Virus record (IMG/VR): IMGVR_UViG_3300043446_000360
Coordinates: 1-42,224 of that record
Source of the DNA: a virus
Strand: one strand, 5' to 3'
Length of the DNA: 42,224 bases
Of this stretch, positions 782 to 42,211 are shown in pieces. Position numbers and translations under genes: made by a program. The notes beneath the pieces are model-generated. The model saw only the letters and a list, made by a program, of their open reading frames with translations, was not told the origin of the DNA and made no database searches. Within the stretch, counting starts at the first letter, position 1, and each line of letters begins with the position of its first letter.

Positions 782-3700
782 TTAACAATCCCATGCTCTA
801 CGCGACCAGTAATTTGCACTGGTCTTCTTAGTTAGATTACCCTGACCGCTTGAGCGAGCACAGTATGATCTCTTGCGTCCAGGTTGATCCTTCTTAATGC
901 TTAGTTTCTTATCGCCAAAGTTTACCTTCTTTACATTACCAGTTGAAGGATCACGAACGTAAACTTTGGATTTCTTTACGTCGCCTTTCATAGGCTTATT
1001 CAGAGGAACATCACGTCCTTGATATATAGCTTCGTTCATCGCTTCTTCTTGCGCATCAAGTGCAGCTTGAACTTCAGGATGATGTTCGAAACCTGATTGA
1101 ACTTCAATACCATAGTCGCGCGCGAACGGAGCAAGCTCAAATCCCGCAGCAAACGATTCATTCAGTTCTACTGATTCGCGAATACCACCGAGTGCTTTGC
1201 GGATAGAAGCTAGATTCTTTTGACCTAGATTTTCTTTTGACTGATCTACTTCGGTGCGAGTCTTTTTAATCATTGAAGAAGTATAATCAACTTTCTCAGG
1301 AGCAAATTTGGCTACAGCGATTTCGCCGGCAACAGATCCTTGACCAGGAGTTACTGACGCATAGTTCTGACGAATCGCGTCTGTTCCTACGAAGCGATTA
1401 GCAGGATCTGCTCTGTTTCCAGATACTGGTTCTGATCCTGTATATGCTTCGCTAGCCGATTTCACTTTCTTTGTAAGATCTGCGCGAAGCTCTTTGTTCG
1501 TAAGATCACTATATGGTGTCTTACCAGTTGGGTGTGTATGCTGTTCGTTCTTAGGGTGCCAAGCATGGAAACTCTTGACACGCTTTACTCTTTTCGCTAG
1601 AGGAACTGCATCGTGAGTGGTCATGTTCTGTTCGAACACTTTCTTGTTGCTCTTACCAGAATCAATACCACGAACAGGAGTGCTGCTTAGTGGTGCTTCA
1701 TTTTCTGTTACGCCAACTTTCGAAGCTTGATTTGGCTTCATCCAATCGCGTGGGCGAACCATAGACTTAGGTGTTTTCTTTCCTGGGGGCAGTTTCTTTA
1801 CAGCTCCAGCAAAGTCTTGCTTTGCTTTTTCAAGATCAGCAGACTGAACAGCCTTAGACTTTTCCCATGGCTTCAGATAGTTCTTAGGTCTTGCTAGTTG
1901 TCCGAACATCTTGTTTGGATCATAGTCGCGACCCTTGACGTTTCCGCGAGCCATGCTACGAACACCACCTTCGTTCACATATTCTTCTTTCTTAACTGCT
2001 CTTTCCTGCTTTTCTTTAGCAACACCAGCGTCACGGAACTTCTTAACTCTGTTCCATGCCTTATCACCCTTACCCTTATCTCCAGGCATTAACCAGCCAG
2101 CTTTCTTTTGTGCGGCTTGCTTTGCTCTGTAGAGTAGTGCTGATGAGATTTCATTGACAGTTTCTTCGTTGGTTGTATGAGTTACAACACGTTCGCCTTT
2201 ATCATTATAGTGTCCGTGAGTTGTAACTCGCTTACCGTCTTTGTATGTCGTAGACTGGAATCCAACCTTACCGCCCTTATCCTTAGCAACTTTGCCAAGG
2301 ATTTTCTTAGCAGCTGCGTGACGCTCAGGATATACAGACTCATTCTTAGGAGTCTTACCGGCTTTCTTCATTGAGATAGCAATCGCAGCCTGTTGTGCTG
2401 GATTAGCAGCTTCTTTAGGAACGCAGTTAGGAACACTGCGTCCACCTTTCATTTTCATACCAACTTGCTTGTAGTCTTTCCAGCATGGCGCGTCTTCATT
2501 AGTCTGTGAAGCCTTTAGAGCTGCATCTGTAGGAGCACCTTTTGATCCAGGCTTACGCATACGCTCACCTGAACCAGCTTTGATACGTGCGCGCTTTGCG
2601 TGAATGTTATCCCAAAGTCCGCGCTTTTCTTGCATATCTGTTTCCTCGCTACGGCAGTTCCACTTTCTAAGTGCTTTATTGATTCTTGAGTTTGGATCGC
2701 GCGCAGTCTTAGCTGATGTCAATCTTTTCTTCATTCCGCCCATACGAGCACAGAATGAAGCACGACGACCAGCAGCTTTTCCACCTTTCTTTAGTTTAGA
2801 AGGCGGAGTTGTTACTGGTGCCTTGAGATTGCTACCGGTTGTTCTATTATAGTGATCGCGACCTTTTTGTGTTAGACCACCTGATGGGCTTTGATAACCT
2901 TTACCATCTTCTGCAAGATCGTGTTCAATTTCTTCTTTCGTAGTTTTCTTTTTGAATGAAGAAAACTTTACGACATTACCTTTTTTCTTTTGCACTTTAT
3001 CTTGCTTGTAGCTCATAGGAACGTTGGTATTATCCGGACTTGGTGCCAGTTTTCCACTCTTATCAATCACAGCAAATCTTGGAGCTCCACCTTTTACGTC
3101 AAAGTGTGTGCCTTTTTGTTTGTCATAGAATCGTGCAGTATTACCATGATATGCAACTGCGTCTGCACCTGATGCTTTTGGATGAACACCTTTCTTAGCA
3201 CCAAACCAATTGCGCAGCATATCGTTCGTATCAATTTCGTGTGGACCAACAATACCTTTCTTATGAAGAAGTCTTGTTGCTAACTTGGTCTTGATGACTT
3301 CGCCTTCTGTAAGATCTTTGTCTAGTTCAGCAGCTTTTCCGCCAGCAATAAATGAATTGACGCGAGAAAACGCTTCGTTGATATCTTCGTTCTGCTCATA
3401 ACCACGAGCAAACACTTCGAAGATAACACTTACATCAACGCCAGACTTTTCTGCTTTATTAAGAAGTGAAAGAGCTTCTTTCTGAACTACGTTGTAGCGA
3501 ACACGAGAATAAGTTGCTGGATCTTTAGTCGTCAGATCAATTAGCTTATCGAGTAGATCAGCCAGTTTCTCACGGAGCTTTGGGCTCTGTAGTGCGAATT
3601 TCTTTGACGAACGCAGCGCACGACGATAGTTCTGTAGCTCTTCCTGATCTACGAGACCAAGACGAAGTAGCAGATCAACTTTCTGCGAGAGCGGACGTGA

Positions 3701-5515
3701 TTTATTAGGATCTGTTGGACGATCTTCGTCTTTCGCTACTTCAGCGATACGACGAACTCCTGGCGGCTCATCGTTATCATAAGCAGAAGTTGTGCGCGAA
3801 CGCCCAACACCAAGATAAAACTCTTTGAACTGACGACCGCCGAGCGAAATCCCTTTCTTCTGATGTTTTACACCATGAGCAAGAACATCACGGAACGATG
3901 CGAGTGATTTACCAGCTTGGATTGTGAACTCATGCTTATCTGCTGGCAGACGCAGAGCGTCGAACTTAGCAAGCAACTTCTTAGCGTCAGCGATTGAGAT
4001 ATGCGCCTTATGTCTATCGGCAAACACAGTTTCATGCTCACCGCGTGAGTTTACTACCTTGCGCATTTGATAGATAATGTTCGTATCGCCAGCGTCACGA
4101 GCGTCTTTGTCGTCTGCAGACTTACGTCCTTCATGCACATATTCTTCGTCGTTGCGAGCATAGTGCATCAGTTTCTTATTAACATGCAAATGCGACTGTG
4201 TTGGATTTTGTGCCTGACGATCGTTAAGTGTAGGATCTGTATCTAGCGTATTGAGCTTGGTTGCATCAACGTTCAGTGGCGAGTCGTGAGCAGCGTCAGC
4301 CTTTGTCTTTTCCCAGTCAGCAACAGAAATGCCGCGACGCGCAGCCTGGATCTTATCTGTTGCCTTATCTCTAGCCGAGCCTTCCTTACCCTTTTCTGCT
4401 TCAACGATGTATGATTCTTTAACATCACGAGCTTTCGCTACGTTGACTTGTGCTTTCTTACGAACAGCTGGAATGAGTCTTTTTGATATCTTTTCCACAG
4501 CGCTCTTTAGTCCTTTCCCAAAACGATTGACAAGCGCATTATCTACGGCAATGCGCTGTGAACGTGATAGTGAGTTATAATCGAGATTCTTTTTGCCTGT
4601 TGCGCGCTTGCGAAGGATCATCAACGCAGCCTTACGTGCGCGCATACGGAGACGTTGTGAAGCTGGCATCTGTTTTGCTTTGATCTGACGCAAACGAGCG
4701 AGACGCTTAGACATCCCCTTCATACGCTGAGATAATTTCTGACGAGCCTGAGCAGAAAGAACTTTTCCTTCGTGAATTTCATTATTGTCGCTATCTTCAC
4801 CGTCGAGAATCAGATCTAACATAAGTGCATCTGAATCATCAAGATCAAGATCTACGCCGTCAATAGCTCTTTCGATTTCTGTGTCTGATGGAAGCGGAAC
4901 TTCATCTTCGTGTTCGTCGTTTTCTACGATAAACGAAATGAACTTTTCGTCAAGGGCGTAATCCATGACATCTTCTCCTAGTAGGGCTCGACGAACAGCG
5001 GTGAACATATTCTTAGCTTGTGCCGCCTTAAGGGTGTTGGGTGCGCCGCGTAGAAACTCAGCGACTTTATCATCTTTGGCAAGAGCGCGCATTTTGCTCG
5101 CTGACATACCAGACACGTCGTCGGCGTCTGGATCACGTTCGCCAGCGGACTTAACTTCGATTTGCTCAAAGTTGTATTCTTTACCGTTATACTTTGTGAG
5201 CAGCTTCGTAAACTCAGGAACACGATCCGAACCAGCGAACATCGTGACGTGAGTATATCCTTCTTTATCCAGCTGCTTAAGAACTTCGATAACTGTGCGA
5301 GCGTTCGACTTTTTTACGAGCGAACCAAAGGCTGCTCGCGCGAACGCGACTTTCTTATCGTATTGTAGGGGATCTTTTGCGCCGACTGAGTGCGATAGAT
5401 AAACGCGAGGAGCAGCACCAACTTGACGAGCATAAGCAACCAGCTTGTTTACAAGCAGCTGGTGTCCAGTCGTAGGGGGATTCATTCTCCCGAACGTGAA
5501 AACAACTTTCTTCAT
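782..5515 (-). CDS. Giant modular virion-type protein with N-terminal nucleotidyltransferase
   Basis: A 1577-residue protein. Residues 1-160 form a nucleotidyltransferase of the NMN/pantetheine-phosphate adenylyltransferase fold: FGRMNPPTTGH gives the (H/T)xGH motif at 15-18, GSDR lies near 95-98, and SASKMR at 138-143 matches the family's ISSTxxR motif. The rest is a chain of modules that recur in structural proteins of T4-like marine phages: a very basic helical segment (about 255-365), a helical module ending in AFSRVNSFIAGG, and three Cys-bounded cassettes (SFCARMGGMKK to KWNC; APCWKDYKQVGM to VPNCVPK; and SYCARSSG to the last residue, Cys). A TATAAATA late promoter at 5590-5597 points at it, and GAGGA precedes the ATG. 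It may be a virion protein, perhaps matured by the prohead protease (inference). No single function can be assigned. The N-terminal domain could act in NAD metabolism or be a packaged enzyme. Confidence 0.85.
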   Translation of the reverse strand: MKKVVFTFGRMNPPTTGHQLLVNKLVAYARQVGAAPRVYLSHSVGAKDPLQYDKKVAFARAAFGSLVKKSNARTVIEVLKQLDKEGYTHVTMFAGSDRVPEFTKLLTKYNGKEYNFEQIEVKSAGERDPDADDVSGMSASKMRALAKDDKVAEFLRGAPNTLKAAQAKNMFTAVRRALLGEDVMDYALDEKFISFIVENDEHEDEVPLPSDTEIERAIDGVDLDLDDSDALMLDLILDGEDSDNNEIHEGKVLSAQARQKLSQRMKGMSKRLARLRQIKAKQMPASQRLRMRARKAALMILRKRATGKKNLDYNSLSRSQRIAVDNALVNRFGKGLKSAVEKISKRLIPAVRKKAQVNVAKARDVKESYIVEAEKGKEGSARDKATDKIQAARRGISVADWEKTKADAAHDSPLNVDATKLNTLDTDPTLNDRQAQNPTQSHLHVNKKLMHYARNDEEYVHEGRKSADDKDARDAGDTNIIYQMRKVVNSRGEHETVFADRHKAHISIADAKKLLAKFDALRLPADKHEFTIQAGKSLASFRDVLAHGVKHQKKGISLGGRQFKEFYLGVGRSRTTSAYDNDEPPGVRRIAEVAKDEDRPTDPNKSRPLSQKVDLLLRLGLVDQEELQNYRRALRSSKKFALQSPKLREKLADLLDKLIDLTTKDPATYSRVRYNVVQKEALSLLNKAEKSGVDVSVIFEVFARGYEQNEDINEAFSRVNSFIAGGKAAELDKDLTEGEVIKTKLATRLLHKKGIVGPHEIDTNDMLRNWFGAKKGVHPKASGADAVAYHGNTARFYDKQKGTHFDVKGGAPRFAVIDKSGKLAPSPDNTNVPMSYKQDKVQKKKGNVVKFSSFKKKTTKEEIEHDLAEDGKGYQSPSGGLTQKGRDHYNRTTGSNLKAPVTTPPSKLKKGGKAAGRRASFCARMGGMKKRLTSAKTARDPNSRINKALRKWNCRSEETDMQEKRGLWDNIHAKRARIKAGSGERMRKPGSKGAPTDAALKASQTNEDAPCWKDYKQVGMKMKGGRSVPNCVPKEAANPAQQAAIAISMKKAGKTPKNESVYPERHAAAKKILGKVAKDKGGKVGFQSTTYKDGKRVTTHGHYNDKGERVVTHTTNEETVNEISSALLYRAKQAAQKKAGWLMPGDKGKGDKAWNRVKKFRDAGVAKEKQERAVKKEEYVNEGGVRSMARGNVKGRDYDPNKMFGQLARPKNYLKPWEKSKAVQSADLEKAKQDFAGAVKKLPPGKKTPKSMVRPRDWMKPNQASKVGVTENEAPLSSTPVRGIDSGKSNKKVFEQNMTTHDAVPLAKRVKRVKSFHAWHPKNEQHTHPTGKTPYSDLTNKELRADLTKKVKSASEAYTGSEPVSGNRADPANRFVGTDAIRQNYASVTPGQGSVAGEIAVAKFAPEKVDYTSSMIKKTRTEVDQSKENLGQKNLASIRKALGGIRESVELNESFAAGFELAPFARDYGIEVQSGFEHHPEVQAALDAQEEAMNEAIYQGRDVPLNKPMKGDVKKSKVYVRDPSTGNVKKVNFGDKKLSIKKDQPGRKRSYCARSSGQGNLTKKTSANYWSRRAWDC

Positions 5516-5790: not shown

Positions 5791-7023
5791 TTACTTCTCC
5801 CATCCCTTGATAATGTCTGGACTGAAATTAGCTTGGCTGAATCCCAGACGATCCACCAGCTTTACGGCTCCACCTGTCAAATGATCTACAGCCACGTATC
5901 CCTCAGGTGATGTCACTTTGAGACCCTGACGAGTGCGCAGAAACGTATTGATTGCAGCAGCTGAATTCATCTTAGCAATAATCATCATCTTAGCATCAAC
6001 AACTAGATTCATAAAGTCAAAGATAGATTTCAGCTGGATTAGTGGTGTGCGAATGATAGGCCCAAACGCCTGTATCTTTTTTGCTTTTACAGAGTTCTTA
6101 CCAGCAACAGTCTTTTTCTTATCTTCTTCTTTCTGATAGTAATCATTCATGTAGTGAATAAACCCAGCAACGTGATGCACTGTGTTACCAATCTTTTCAC
6201 CCGCACGAACCTTACTGTTATTGTATGTCTTGATGCGCATCAGCAAGTCTGCGTCCTGATGAAACGCATTCACAGCTTCTGCAGGTAGTTTTTGTAAGAT
6301 TTTTCCAGCTTCTGATAGAATCTTGTTGAATGCAGCTGTTTCTTTTGCAGTAAACGTAGCAGATCCGCTGACGTCTTTGTAGTTCGCATCATCCATCCAG
6401 ATAGTGCCAACTTGATTCAGCTTCTCAACGATACCTTTACCGAACGATGCTTTCATAGATTCAAAGCTATCGCCTTCGTATGTTGTATGCCAAACAACAC
6501 CAACGCTAGCTCTTGCGATAATTTTACCAAGAGCAGATCCGATAGGAACAGCATACACGATTGTGTTAGGTTGGAACGTATAATACTTTTCCCCGTCGAT
6601 GACTTCTGTGCGAACGTCACCTTTAGTGAACATCAGATCTCCCTGATAGACACCAGATTTGATACCTAGTTTCTTAAACTCGCGAAGAGCCACACTAAAC
6701 TTGTCAGCCAGTTCGCCGCTAAGATCAGCGTCGATATCTGCTTGTGTCTTGTAGATTTTAGGATTCTTGTTGAAGATACCTTTCTTAGCAACAAAAAACT
6801 TATCATCACGGGGATCTATGCCAGCAAAGATAGCAGGAGCTCCATCCCACTTAACTGTTGCTGCAACTTTCTTAGTCGTATGACCACCAAGCATCTCGCG
6901 CATCTGGATCAGAAAGTTAAAGATCTGCTTCGCACCAGTAACGCCATCGTTGAGGATTAGATCCTCGATGTGCTCCATGTGTAGATTCTTTTCTTCAGCG
7001 ATGAACGTTGATAACTTTTTCAT
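5791..7023 (-). CDS. Ligase-like nucleotidyltransferase with capsid-targeting N-terminus
   Basis: A 410-residue protein that I read as a member of the DNA/RNA ligase-like nucleotidyltransferase superfamily. VKWDG at 57-61 fits motif I (KxDG, with Lys58 as the candidate AMP-accepting lysine), GDLM at 128-131 and EGYV at 374-377 fit internal motifs, and AVKLVDR about 386-392 fits motif V. Similar proteins of unknown role are common in T4-like cyanophages (a DUF-type family). The N-terminus, MKKLSTFIAE followed by E, resembles the T4 internal-protein capsid-targeting peptide (MKTYQEFIAE) that is cut after Glu by the prohead protease, so it may be packaged and injected (inference). It overlaps the nuclease-like gene upstream by 4 bases (ATGA), so the two are probably made together. 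The substrate, DNA or RNA, cannot be told. Confidence 0.65.
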   Translation of the reverse strand: MKKLSTFIAEEKNLHMEHIEDLILNDGVTGAKQIFNFLIQMREMLGGHTTKKVAATVKWDGAPAIFAGIDPRDDKFFVAKKGIFNKNPKIYKTQADIDADLSGELADKFSVALREFKKLGIKSGVYQGDLMFTKGDVRTEVIDGEKYYTFQPNTIVYAVPIGSALGKIIARASVGVVWHTTYEGDSFESMKASFGKGIVEKLNQVGTIWMDDANYKDVSGSATFTAKETAAFNKILSEAGKILQKLPAEAVNAFHQDADLLMRIKTYNNSKVRAGEKIGNTVHHVAGFIHYMNDYYQKEEDKKKTVAGKNSVKAKKIQAFGPIIRTPLIQLKSIFDFMNLVVDAKMMIIAKMNSAAAINTFLRTRQGLKVTSPEGYVAVDHLTGGAVKLVDRLGFSQANFSPDIIKGWEK

Positions 7024-38610: not shown

Positions 38611-39159
38611 TCATTCTTCGAGCTGATACTTACGATAACGGAACGTAACAGTGGCTTCCATATACTCAATCGTAGTATTGGTAGAAACGAACGCCAACTC
38701 CGTAAGTCCAATAGGAAAGCAATCATAGAAAAAGATATTCTTGTTCACGTTCTTGGCTGCGGTTAGAACAGAAAGCACGGCGTCTGACATATACGTTGTA
38801 TAGTAACCAACAGAACGAGTACCAGCCATTTGATAGTTGTTAATGTCTTTCGACAGAGCACGAGTTTGACCAAGATTGTCTGGATGTCCAAGCGCCTCAA
38901 TCCACTTCTGAATCTCGAAATAGTTCTTTAGATCTTCATCGACTTTGAATGTGATGACTAATGGCTCGTATGTGATACGATCGCCAGGGCGTGGAAGAGA
39001 AGCAAATGGAGTTGGGGTTTCTGCTACGCCAATTGATACTGCAGGAATAGCAACGCCCTGACAGAAATAGTTTACGCCTGGAAGACGCTTGATTGAGAAT
39101 CGAAAGCCGTTTTGACCAAGAAAGTTAATGTTAGATGGCTGTGAGTCGATTGCTGACAT
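38611..39159 (-). CDS. Tail tube-like protein (T4 gp19 family)
   Basis: A 182-residue protein with the layout of T4 gp19-type tail tube proteins: FLGQNGFRFSIKRLPGVNYF, VAIPAVSIGVAETPTPFASL, then GDRITYEPLVITFKVDED, EIQKWIEALGHP and a C-terminal strand pair ending ATVTFRYRKYQLEE. Length is close to gp19 (163). It lies next to capsid genes rather than beside a sheath gene, so it may be a second tube/baseplate-associated paralog. The function is inferred from fold-level similarity. Confidence 0.65.
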   Translation of the reverse strand: MSAIDSQPSNINFLGQNGFRFSIKRLPGVNYFCQGVAIPAVSIGVAETPTPFASLPRPGDRITYEPLVITFKVDEDLKNYFEIQKWIEALGHPDNLGQTRALSKDINNYQMAGTRSVGYYTTYMSDAVLSVLTAAKNVNKNIFFYDCFPIGLTELAFVSTNTTIEYMEATVTFRYRKYQLEE

Positions 39160-39740
39160 TAGAAGTTCTTTCTTTTGTTAAGCGAAGCGACAAGTTTCAT
39201 CTTGTAGATTTCTTTTCCAGCCTTGTCAGTTTTCAAGAATCCTGCGATAGCTTCTTTTTCGCTTACATGTGTTTCTTCTGGATCACGCGGATCTAGATTT
39301 ATAGCTTTACCACGATACCATCCGTAGATAGATACACCACGTTCTTTAGCAAGATTTTGCCAAATCTTTTGTCCACCTGGAGAATGACTTTTTCCGACAA
39401 GAGCTACTGCGTGACCAGACTCTAGAATCTTGCGATATACAACATGTGCTTTAGGACCACGTCCTGTAGAATCTGCTGTGTCGATGGTATAGACTTTTTT
39501 AGGATTGAGCATACCTGTAACAGTAAGTTGCACGATTCCAGTATCTCTATCTATGGCATAGTAGAGATCAAATGCTTCAATCTTGCGGTGATAAAGATCT
39601 GTGCTAGAATCAATTCTGATGAGTTTCTTACCAGCTTTTTTAAGATCTAGTTTGTGACCAGTTTCATAAGAAAACTTCTGCCCTCTCCTAATTGATGTTA
39701 GGAGTGGAGCTTCGCTTAAGAACTGTGTGAATGATTTCAT
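39159..39740 (-). CDS. Internal/virion protein with capsid-targeting N-terminus, GNAT-like
   Basis: A 193-residue protein. The first residues MKSFTQFLSE followed by Ala closely resemble the capsid-targeting peptide of T4 internal proteins (MKTYQEFIAE followed by Ala), which the prohead protease removes after Glu. The middle (GRGPKAHVVYRKILESGHAV, then SHSPGGQKIWQNLAKERGV and YGWYRGKAINL) resembles an acetyltransferase (GNAT-type) fold. The start is ATG 39738-39740, with a TATAAATA element at 39746-39753 and no Shine-Dalgarno sequence, so the message may be leaderless. It may be an enzyme injected with the DNA (inference). Confidence 0.65.
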   Translation of the reverse strand: MKSFTQFLSEAPLLTSIRRGQKFSYETGHKLDLKKAGKKLIRIDSSTDLYHRKIEAFDLYYAIDRDTGIVQLTVTGMLNPKKVYTIDTADSTGRGPKAHVVYRKILESGHAVALVGKSHSPGGQKIWQNLAKERGVSIYGWYRGKAINLDPRDPEETHVSEKEAIAGFLKTDKAGKEIYKMKLVASLNKRKNF

Positions 39741-39833: not shown

Positions 39834-41237
39834 TTACATCAGGTTTGAAACCTTGACGAAGCGGTAGTAGACGTTGTAACCCTTGGTGTTTGGTGCACCA
39901 ATAGCGCCGTCGGCTGAAGAAGTTGCGAATGGGTTTGCAACCATTCCGTAACGTGTCTTGAAGCCGATCTTAGGCTGGAACGAATCCTGACCGATAGCGC
40001 GAACCATCTGGAGAGGAACGTATGGGCAGTAGAACAGACCGGCGTCGAATGCAGAAGCACCCTTATAGCCGAGTGTGAAATACTGCTGACCAGCTGACGA
40101 AGCGAAGTAAGGATCAATATAAACCTTAATACGTCCGTTCAGAACACCAGCGAAGGTGTTGCCTGTGTCGTCTACGTTGAGGTTGTTAGCAAGAGCTGGA
40201 GTGTAGTCCAGAACGCCAGCCATCTGAAGAGCTGAAGCAACGTCGGATCCGCAGATCAGAACGTTACCCTTACCTCTACGAGTTGCCTTAGCAATCTGGT
40301 TAGACTCGCGTTCGATCTGGAATAGCAGACCCTTGAACTTTTCTACCATCCAACGTCCGTTTGAGTCAACGTCCAGGTTGAACGTACCAGCAGTTGTTAC
40401 GTTTTCCTGAGCACCAGCCGAAGCTGTGTAGTTGATTGTACGAACAACTTCACGGTTGATTTCCGTTAGGATTTCAGCAGCGAGGATGTTTGAAAGTTCT
40501 GTTTCAGCGTCAAGACCGTGGATAGCCTTAAGGTCCTGTGCCAGTTCCATTGTGTATTCTGCCTTGAGGGCGCGTGAAACTGCTGTTACCGCTACCTTCT
40601 CAATGCTGAATGCCATTTCCTGGAAGTTACCGCCAGCAGCAGTACCGTCACCAAGACGTTCTGCAGCAGTGCGTGACATACCAGTTGAAACGGTATAAGA
40701 ACCAGATGTTGCAGCTGAAGCGCGAAGTGTTGGGTCAGAAGCTTCCTGAACACGACCTGTTGAAGTGTTACCAACAACGAGACGTGAAGCTGTGTTACCA
40801 GCAGCTGAACCAGAGAACGTTGTGTTAGCTTCGTTGAAGAGAGCTTCCGTTCCGCCCTGTGTGCTGTAACGTGAACGCATTGCGAAGATCAGGCCTGTTG
40901 GACCTGTCATTGGCTGAACGCCGCAGAGATCGTATGCGATCAGGTTAGGCATCGAACGACGAACCAGTGAAATAAGAACTGGATCGAATGTGTCGATAGC
41001 GCCGTCAGATGCTGTGGATGACGAAGCACCCATGCTGTTTGTTGGAGCAGCTTCGCCCAGTAGTGTTGGTGCGCGATAACCGCCTGAACCAAAACCATCT
41101 TCACGAGCTGACTTTTCCTGGTTTTCCAGAAGCTGTGCAACTACGCTACGACGATGTGCATCCTTAATTGGAGCCAGATCAGGATGTTCCAGGACTGGCT
41201 GCCACTTTTTCTGAACTGCCTCATTCAGAGATTGCAT
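39834..41237 (-). CDS. 23: Major capsid protein gp23
   Basis: A 467-residue major capsid protein of the T4 family (HK97 fold). LVRRSMPNLIAYDLCGVQPM, GPTGLIFAMRSRYSTQGG and QNIAKATRRGKGN-like NQIAKATRRGKGNVLICGSD are hallmark segments. The prohead protease site (L/I-x-E) fits Leu60-Gly61-Glu62 before Ala63, near the known T4 cut after Glu65. It lies directly after gp22, and a strong terminator follows. Confidence 0.97.
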   Translation of the reverse strand: MQSLNEAVQKKWQPVLEHPDLAPIKDAHRRSVVAQLLENQEKSAREDGFGSGGYRAPTLLGEAAPTNSMGASSSTASDGAIDTFDPVLISLVRRSMPNLIAYDLCGVQPMTGPTGLIFAMRSRYSTQGGTEALFNEANTTFSGSAAGNTASRLVVGNTSTGRVQEASDPTLRASAATSGSYTVSTGMSRTAAERLGDGTAAGGNFQEMAFSIEKVAVTAVSRALKAEYTMELAQDLKAIHGLDAETELSNILAAEILTEINREVVRTINYTASAGAQENVTTAGTFNLDVDSNGRWMVEKFKGLLFQIERESNQIAKATRRGKGNVLICGSDVASALQMAGVLDYTPALANNLNVDDTGNTFAGVLNGRIKVYIDPYFASSAGQQYFTLGYKGASAFDAGLFYCPYVPLQMVRAIGQDSFQPKIGFKTRYGMVANPFATSSADGAIGAPNTKGYNVYYRFVKVSNLM

Positions 41238-41257: not shown

Positions 41258-42211
41258 TTACTTTTTGATGCCGCGAGTAATCGCGTTCATATAAGCAGCC
41301 ATCTCAACTGGAACCTGCTTTTCAGCGCCCTCTTCTAGGTCGCCCACTGGTTCCTCATCGAAAGATACTGATTCTGACAAAGGACTGGCCTTGCCCTTTG
41401 TTGGGAAGTAACTTTCACGAAGTGTAGCAATCTTGTTCTTATACGAATCAACGCTTTCGAACTCGACTGCTTCAGAAAGTGACTGCAGCTTTGCAACTTG
41501 CGTATCTGTCAGGCCTTCTGAAACTTGAGCGAACGCCATTCCGCGTTCGAATTCTTTAATCTTAGCTGTAAGCTCAACATTCTTTTCAATTTCTTCGTTG
41601 ATAGCAGCTTCAAGAGTTTCAACCTTACCGGCAAGCTCTTCAGCAACTTCAACTGCTTCGTCTGGAATGTCGATGTAGTGTGATTCAAACAGACCCTTAA
41701 GACCTGACATGAATGACTCTACGATTTCAGCCTTAAGACCACGTTCAATGGCTACAGAGTTTTCCTGCATCCAGTTTTCAACAACGTAGTCAAGATACTG
41801 ATCAACACGCTCAACGAGTTCTTCGCTGACTGTTGATACTTCTTCTGTTAGGGAGTCGTCGAACTTAGCTTCGACTGCTTCGAGCTGCTCGTTTACCTTT
41901 GAAAGAACAGCTGCTGTATATACTTCTGTTGCCTTAGCAATGAACTCTTCTGATACTTCTGTACCAGCAAAGATTGCCTTGATGTCGTCTGAAACGTCAA
42001 TGTCTTCAGCTGTAATACGAACTGAAGACTCGCCAATTGAACGCTGCTTTGGATCAACAGAATTACCCTGTTGTGGGTTTGTCTTGTCACCCTTGAACGC
42101 TGCATCGTAGAAAGCAGAAACGTCAGCTTTCTTAAGACCAGATAGTGTATCAACGATCGAGTTGATCATTCCTACCTTTGTATATGGCTTTACACTTGAG
42201 CCCTGAAGCAT
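41258..42211 (-). CDS. 22: Prohead core scaffold gp22 (5' end uncertain or partial)
   Basis: A 317-residue acidic, heptad-rich protein typical of gp22, the main scaffold core removed by the prohead protease. YVVENWMQENSVAIERGLKA then IVESFMSGLKGLFESH match T4 gp22 (LAKEWLAENKLAVDKGIKAE, ESMLGGLKELF). Several L-x-E sites suit gp21 cleavage. The frame stays open to the window edge (42224), so the true start may lie outside. Within it, Met15 (ATG 42167-42169, MINSIVDTLSGLKK) follows AAAGGTAGGA and is a good alternative start. It is larger than T4 gp22 (269). Confidence 0.9.
   Translation of the reverse strand: MLQGSSVKPYTKVGMINSIVDTLSGLKKADVSAFYDAAFKGDKTNPQQGNSVDPKQRSIGESSVRITAEDIDVSDDIKAIFAGTEVSEEFIAKATEVYTAAVLSKVNEQLEAVEAKFDDSLTEEVSTVSEELVERVDQYLDYVVENWMQENSVAIERGLKAEIVESFMSGLKGLFESHYIDIPDEAVEVAEELAGKVETLEAAINEEIEKNVELTAKIKEFERGMAFAQVSEGLTDTQVAKLQSLSEAVEFESVDSYKNKIATLRESYFPTKGKASPLSESVSFDEEPVGDLEEGAEKQVPVEMAAYMNAITRGIKK

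Follow-up and report, generated by a model that had tools for sequence, protein, structure and literature searches.

The window analysed here, i.e., a virus record of 42,224 bases taken as a whole (a fragment of 42 kb), carries on its minus strand a single uninterrupted ORF that runs from an ATG start at 5515 to 782 and encodes a product of 1577 amino acids. Judged by its gene content the window phage is T4-like, with genes for a gp43-type DNA polymerase, UvsX, a DnaB-type helicase, a RegA-type repressor, a clamp and clamp loader, SbcCD-like (gp46/47-type) subunits, a late sigma factor, gp22 and gp23. Its DNA polymerase shares ca. 52% identity with Synechococcus phage DNA polymerases, and several accessory proteins are similar to those of pelagiphage HTVC008M and methylophage Melnitz. 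The genes considered below are as follows (CTS, capsid-targeting sequence; a slash marks a cleavage-like position):

782-5515, minus strand: the whole gene, a proposed head-cargo polyprotein (one ORF, with eight full-length fused homologs)
5791-7023, minus strand: the upstream gene, for a DUF6267 protein of 410 aa (CTS MKKLSTFIAEE and ligase-like motifs)
39834-41237, minus strand: major capsid protein gp23 (LLGE62/A aligned with FLTE/A of T4)
41258-42211, minus strand: head scaffold gp22, possibly extending beyond the window edge (eight phi-x-E-[AGS] sites)

Moreover, positions 41-481, downstream of the 1577-aa gene, encode a Dps/ferritin-like protein (Ferritin, E=1e-23) that is kept in most relatives, and positions 39159-39740, beside gp23, encode a protein with the CTS-like N-terminus MKSFTQFLSEA that might be a candidate cargo.

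The fused protein was found at full length in eight metagenomic contigs (1205-1463 aa, 66-75% identity), and three further contigs carry partial or divergent copies, giving 11 relatives in total. Since eight other contigs carry the full-length fusion, misassembly was ruled out as its origin and the gene is taken to be real. When the fused homologs were aligned, the N-terminal half appeared well conserved, and the C-terminal half was seen to gain and lose whole cassettes. In one divergent relative (L010, 7986-10733) the head is a divergent nucleotidyltransferase (LGRFQPPHKEH) followed by the same downstream modules, which, as read from the alignment, is a case of head swapping with respect to the window protein.

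The N-terminal part of the window protein comprises an enzyme domain with two motifs, i.e.:

4973-5515, minus strand: HIGH-type nucleotidyltransferase domain, residues 1-181 (phrog_3041 and phrog_395; AF2 pLDDT 89.8; VIA-align)
5462-5491, minus strand: GRMNPPTTGH, residues 9-18, the T/HxGH nucleotide-binding motif (R10, P13 and H18 invariant in 45 sequences)
5087-5104, minus strand: SASKMR, residues 138-143, an ISSTxxR-type motif (R143 invariant, S138 and K141 at least 90%, in 45 sequences)

Residues 1-184 matched the PHROG "cytidyltransferase" families phrog_3041 (E=2.5e-59) and phrog_395 (E=4e-38). A PDB profile search by sequence with the enzyme alignment returned only chance Hsp70 matches and weak NMNAT/RibF matches, and structure comparison was therefore required for this domain. 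In the AF2 model, built from 45 sequences, residues 1-180 mostly exceeded a pLDDT of 93, except for a loop at ca. 121-140. Foldseek and VIA-align found phosphopantetheine and nicotinate-mononucleotide adenylyltransferases as its neighbours, with VIA-align yielding a near tie between PPAT (3pxu; Z of 14.8 over 152 residues, rmsd 2.8) and NadD (Z of 13.9). Both the Rossmann-like fold and the two motifs that define HIGH-type nucleotidyltransferases (CTP_transf_like) are present, and since they are retained, the nucleotide pocket of the modelled head looks intact. A fold without such a pocket, which the preliminary description of this DNA had named as an argument against its own reading, was encountered neither with AF2, nor with structure comparison, nor at the level of the motifs. 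Its claim of an intact adenylyltransferase-like head in a 1577-aa protein is likewise borne out by the intact ORF, the PHROG matches, the pLDDT of ca. 90 and both motifs.

The identity of the acceptor is a separate matter. The window protein did not match PF01467, which 5 of the 12 members of alignment A1 reached at E<=1 (best 7.7e-07) and for which the Melnitz protein scores above the cut-off. The NCBIfam NMNAT equivalog models gave no match for the window protein and ca. 18 bits for its relatives (versus a cut-off of 341), and an NMN/NaMN-specific assignment by equivalog model was rejected on account of these scores. The earlier designation as an NMN/pantetheine-phosphate adenylyltransferase thus stands for the fold, with its tie between PPAT and NadD, and is not established for NMN as the substrate. 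As PPAT and NadD match the modelled head equally well, its fold cannot name the acceptor, and synthesis of NAD or of a dinucleotide is a reasonable guess.

The remainder of the window protein consists of small, mostly basic modules between low-confidence, partly acidic linkers, in which the following features were delineated:

4922-4942, minus strand: FISFIVE, residues 192-198, an internal CTS-like and prohead-protease-like site where the enzyme domain ends, with no second such motif in the window protein
4769-4921, minus strand: acidic linker, residues 199-249, net charge -20 over 51 residues, ending in IHE/G
4400-4768, minus strand: strongly basic module, residues 250-372, net charge +29 over 123 residues, ending in IVE/A
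3860-4084, minus strand: small alpha/beta module, residues 478-552 (AF2 pLDDT ca. 70-86, the best-folded part of residues 378-1577)
3311-3487, minus strand: DUF5824-like helical module, residues ca. 677-735, ending in LTE/G (DUF5824 in relatives)
2660-2893, minus strand: DUF6321, residues 875-952 (Pfam, E=5.2e-20)
2654-2752, minus strand: Cys cassette 1, C922-C954 (cysteine pair; the end of DUF6321)
2507-2620, minus strand: basic GLWDNIH...RKPG cassette, residues 966-1003 (phrog_16028 at 963-1002)
2423-2485, minus strand: Cys cassette 2, C1011-C1031 (CWxxY...PNC; cysteine pair)
785-1030, minus strand: C-terminal basic module, residues 1496-1577, after MNE/A (a separate gene in HTVC008M)
785-862, minus strand: Cys cassette 3, C1552-C1577, with Cys as the last residue (cysteine pair)

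The three Cys-bounded cassettes had been described exactly, since the window protein has only six cysteines, at 922 and 954, 1011 and 1031, and 1552 and 1577 (the final residue); in the relatives of the fused protein, too, cysteines occur only in such pairs. The DUF5824-like module spans KAEKSG...ARVNSF in relatives, and a cassette resembling GLWDNIH...RKPG is also found in a separate HTVC008M protein. At the level of Pfam, PHROG and NCBIfam, one enzyme domain and no second catalytic domain was recognised in the window protein, and its non-enzyme part holds no recognisable capsid or tail structural domains. The earlier mention of structural-type modules extending over more than 1400 residues is thus only loosely right, as it fits the small modules but no capsid or tail domain. 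Domain-wise structure prediction, which had been suggested as a check, was confident for the head; for residues 378-1577 (nine sequences) AF2 mostly remained below a pLDDT of 50 and was confident at ca. 478-552 only, so that the module limits are uncertain over most of this region.

Virion mass spectrometry has detected the homologous enzyme in cyanophages S-SCSM1, S-SZBM1 and S-CREM2, with S-CBWM1 being cited as well, and NMNAT-like proteins in cyanophage virions are thus already known (PMC9602691, PMC9146016, PMC10665884), with the caveat from the authors of one of the proteomes that such proteins may merely persist in the purified suspension. The virion-detected enzymes of S-SCSM1, S-SZBM1 and S-CREM2 all start with a T4-type CTS (MKNFSSFLTEA in S-CREM2, MKSFLQFLKEA in S-SCSM1 and MRFRQFIIEA in S-SZBM1), the corresponding N-terminus of T4 ipII and ipIII being MKTYQEFIAEA. 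In the T4 CTS, residues 4 and 7 direct prohead targeting and residues 8 and 10 direct processing (PMC9026906), and our CTS motif captures these four positions. Using the S-CREM2 genome and its published virion proteome with coordinates (PMC10665884), this motif, as a loose regex defined post hoc with the sequences already in view, was found within the first 30 residues of 7 of 52 virion proteins versus 1 of 167 others (Fisher p=2e-4). Six of these seven are non-structural, i.e., a SAM hydrolase (MKDFDSFLEE), a Cas9-like nuclease (FASFMAEA), a kinase (VKRFDAFLTEE), gp13 (MKDLHSFLTEQ), gp136 (MQTFSMFFSED) and the cytidylyltransferase (MKNFSSFLTEA). The SAM hydrolase and the kinase carry the CTS-like motif at the N-terminus itself, and the Cas9-annotated, HNH-type virion protein (S-CREM2 record L017, 7704-10313) carries LRFASFMAEA near its N-terminus.

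Among the IMG/VR relatives with the enzyme, the motif lies at most 30 residues before the enzyme in 40 of 79, where ca. 2-3 would be expected, or in 12 of 40 clusters after clustering at 65% identity; several more of the 79 have degenerate versions. The window protein itself starts with MKKVVFTFGRM and has no N-terminal CTS, and an upstream start site supplying one was looked for and excluded, as no in-frame upstream start adds it. A FISFIVE-type motif was found exactly once per protein in 11 of 11 homologs, at residue 192 (or 202 in the divergent L010), and in the wider set of 79 relatives 24 of 40 body motifs fall at residues 160-260 counted from the enzyme start. Moreover, cassette 2 also occurs in the virion-detected proteins gp160 of S-CREM2 and ORF139 of S-SZBM1, whose genes lie near the enzyme gene. 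By analogy with these relatives, whose enzyme is detected in published proteomes and whose homologs are CTS-tagged, the earlier proposal of virion delivery is well supported for this kind of protein. As a further observation, ORF93 of S-SCSM1 (L101, 31627-31836), a small and virion-annotated protein, shows a resemblance to an AQQ-type (DUF3008-like) cassette and has a CTS-like C-terminus (RTFKEFLEYIE).

Several module junctions of the window protein carry phi-x-E sites, i.e., FIVE198, IHE249/G, IVE372/A, VHE462/G, LTE737/G, LNE1453/S and MNE1495/A. Across the nine full-length proteins, the pattern phi-x-E-[A/G/K] holds at 249, 462 and 737 in 9 of 9, sites 198 and 372 keep phi-x-E, site 1453 is conserved, and site 1495 is present in most members. 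In gp23 of the window phage, LLGE62/A corresponds to FLTE/A of T4 gp23 and probably reflects the cleavage pattern of this phage. The window protein contains 10 phi-x-E-[AGS] sites versus 4.6 in shuffled sequence (p=0.018), a modest excess, and its density of 0.63 per 100 aa shows no excess over the 0.55 of other window proteins; density was accordingly abandoned as proof of processing, as control ORFs were equally dense. The adjoining of conserved sites and variable linkers reached weak significance (p=0.026). We infer cutting from the conserved junction sites, yet with an overall site density that is not above that of control proteins. Given that FISFIVE closes off the enzyme domain in all relatives, the enzyme may be bracketed by cut sites.

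The same modules also occur as genes of their own. In Melnitz, the neighbouring gene encodes a basic module like residues 250-372 (start MKKFSELTSELIE), and in HTVC008M the basic module is also a separate gene, with the C-terminal module being the next gene. Three contigs (L045, L055 and L062) encode the DUF5824 module by itself, in a gene of ca. 84 aa that directly follows the enzyme gene and starts with a separate CTS (MIKFSQYVTED, MIRFSQYITEA or MKFKEFLDEK). Because other phages encode and tag these modules separately, the window protein appears to consist of joined pieces. The polyprotein option raised in the preliminary description is therefore supported by the architecture and the stand-alone tagged modules, with cleavage being predicted from the sites.

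The DUF6267 protein encoded upstream shows covalent-nucleotidyltransferase-like or ligase-like motifs (KWDGAP, QGD, EGYV and KLVDR). Neither hhalign against T4 Rnl2 nor a sequence-based PDB search for solved structures yielded a match, and a ligase role is therefore read from the motifs. In five contigs (L061, L069, L087, L093 and L100) DUF6267 is fused to the adenylyltransferase domain, which hints at a joint function, and DUF6267 is a likely second injected enzyme.

We propose that this T4-like phage probably uses the 1577-aa protein as a cargo polyprotein inside its head, to be cut there and injected, and for the window protein we infer packaging, cutting, ejection, early action in the host and substrate as follows. 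The polyprotein would be drawn into the assembling prohead via interactions like those of the T4 internal proteins, with the internal FISFIVE as the likely packaging signal, or else through co-packaging with the tagged DUF6267 product. A gp21-type prohead protease would then cut after phi-x-E at junctions 198, 249, 372, 462, 737, 1453 and 1495, freeing a nucleotidyltransferase of ca. 195 residues along with a number of small, basic modules with paired cysteines, which would remain on the packaged DNA and accompany it into the host. The enzyme could thus be active at once in the new cell, ahead of phage gene expression, where it would most likely transfer AMP onto a mononucleotide or a pantetheine-like acceptor, with NMN/NaMN as our preferred guess.

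The location of homologs in virions, the fit of strongly basic modules with DNA binding and a site density not above that of control proteins would also suit a protein that is packaged and injected as one uncut chain, either like T4 Alt save for end trimming, or like the described "polyvalent" injected multidomain proteins (PMC5512222), with the enzyme tethered to DNA-binding modules. We regard an uncut chain as a credible but rather unlikely alternative, because phi-x-E-[A/G] is conserved at several module junctions, the modules occur as separate tagged genes, and close relatives differ in length by whole cassettes. It seems distinctly improbable that the enzyme is an intracellular auxiliary metabolic enzyme (of NAD or CoA metabolism) made in infection, with an assembly-related or neutral tail. 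The lack of an N-terminal CTS in the window protein and the label of auxiliary cytidylyltransferase that cyanophage homologs usually receive (PMC9146016) would agree with it, but homologs are repeatedly detected in virions and CTS-tagged, and one tail cassette occurs in virion proteins.

Two further proposals concern function and are compatible with packaging. An injected enzyme could rebuild NAD+ against NAD-depleting immunity, a role that early delivery would suit and that the NMNAT-like fold brings to mind, given that NAD+ reconstitution by phages is a known counter-defence (PMC12774641). However, PPAT matches the head equally well, NMNAT equivalog scores are far under the cut-off, and the PHROG-annotated ORFs of the 42 kb fragment (whose small ORFs were covered in part) include no NAD-salvage partner, so that counter-defence, which the preliminary description also raised, is a possibility that we consider quite unlikely. 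Early in infection, the enzyme and the ligase-like DUF6267 might act jointly on nucleic-acid ends or on a nucleotide cofactor. This is suggested by DUF6267 being located upstream, CTS-tagged, endowed with ligase-like motifs and, in five contigs, fused to the enzyme, but would be rather unlikely in view of its failure to match T4 Rnl2 by hhalign or any solved structure by sequence, and of no DUF6267 gene having been noted in an unsystematic look beside the S-CREM2 enzyme gene.

If the proposed polyprotein is indeed cut inside the head, it would offer a phage an unusual route for delivering numerous small proteins in fixed proportions, and its junctions would be testable in proteome data that exist for relatives. 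The literature examined repeatedly reports NMNAT-like enzymes in cyanophage virions and gives no explanation of how they enter; a T4-type CTS on these enzymes and on other non-structural virion proteins would provide a simple entry mechanism, and would allow injected effectors to be predicted from sequence. No literature on a cyanophage CTS or on head polyproteins of this kind was found in a search that most subscription papers fell outside, which makes this weak evidence of novelty. It is plausible, albeit less likely than not, that T4-like phages of aquatic bacteria deliver cargo by a general scheme of "tag, fuse and cut", in which a CTS and prohead-protease sites allow cargo modules to be swapped between stand-alone genes and giant polyproteins of the head, the 1577-aa protein being an extreme case with ca. 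ten pieces released into the head. On that same tentative reading, the cargo would include the nucleotidyltransferase, the ligase-like DUF6267, the SAM hydrolase, the kinase, the Cas9-like nuclease and the basic Cys-paired cassettes.

Compared with known systems, the head shares its fold and its T/HxGH-type and SxSxxR motifs with bacterial CoaD (PPAT) and with NadD and archaeal NMNAT, at ca. 9-19% identity in structural alignments, from which acceptor specificity is not assignable. The polyvalent proteins known from phages and conjugative elements (PMC5512222) are also long and multidomain and are believed to enter along with DNA by injection, perhaps with proteolytic processing, whereas the window protein has one recognisable enzyme domain rather than several catalytic ones and would be processed by a prohead protease rather than a zincin-like peptidase, with a shared domain not having been demonstrated. 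With T4 IPI-IPIII and Alt, which are CTS-targeted, gp21-processed and ejected, the relatives of the window protein share the N-terminal [FY]xx[F][LI]xE and detection in virions, and the window phage likewise has a gp23 with a cleavage-like site (LLGE/A). The window protein is far larger than the T4 internal proteins, contains many modules and a nucleotidyltransferase enzyme, and has its CTS-like motif inside the chain, this short motif being the only shared sequence feature; its mechanism may be analogous to that of T4-type internal head proteins, though the window protein lacks their N-terminal CTS. The virion NMNAT/cytidylyltransferase of cyanophages (S-SCSM1 ORF91, S-SZBM1 ORF140 and S-CREM2 gp154; phrog_3041/phrog_395) is a protein of 286-409 aa with separate cassette genes, in contrast to a fusion of 1577 aa without an N-terminal CTS; its enzyme domain is homologous to that of the window protein, and genes for cassette proteins lie nearby.
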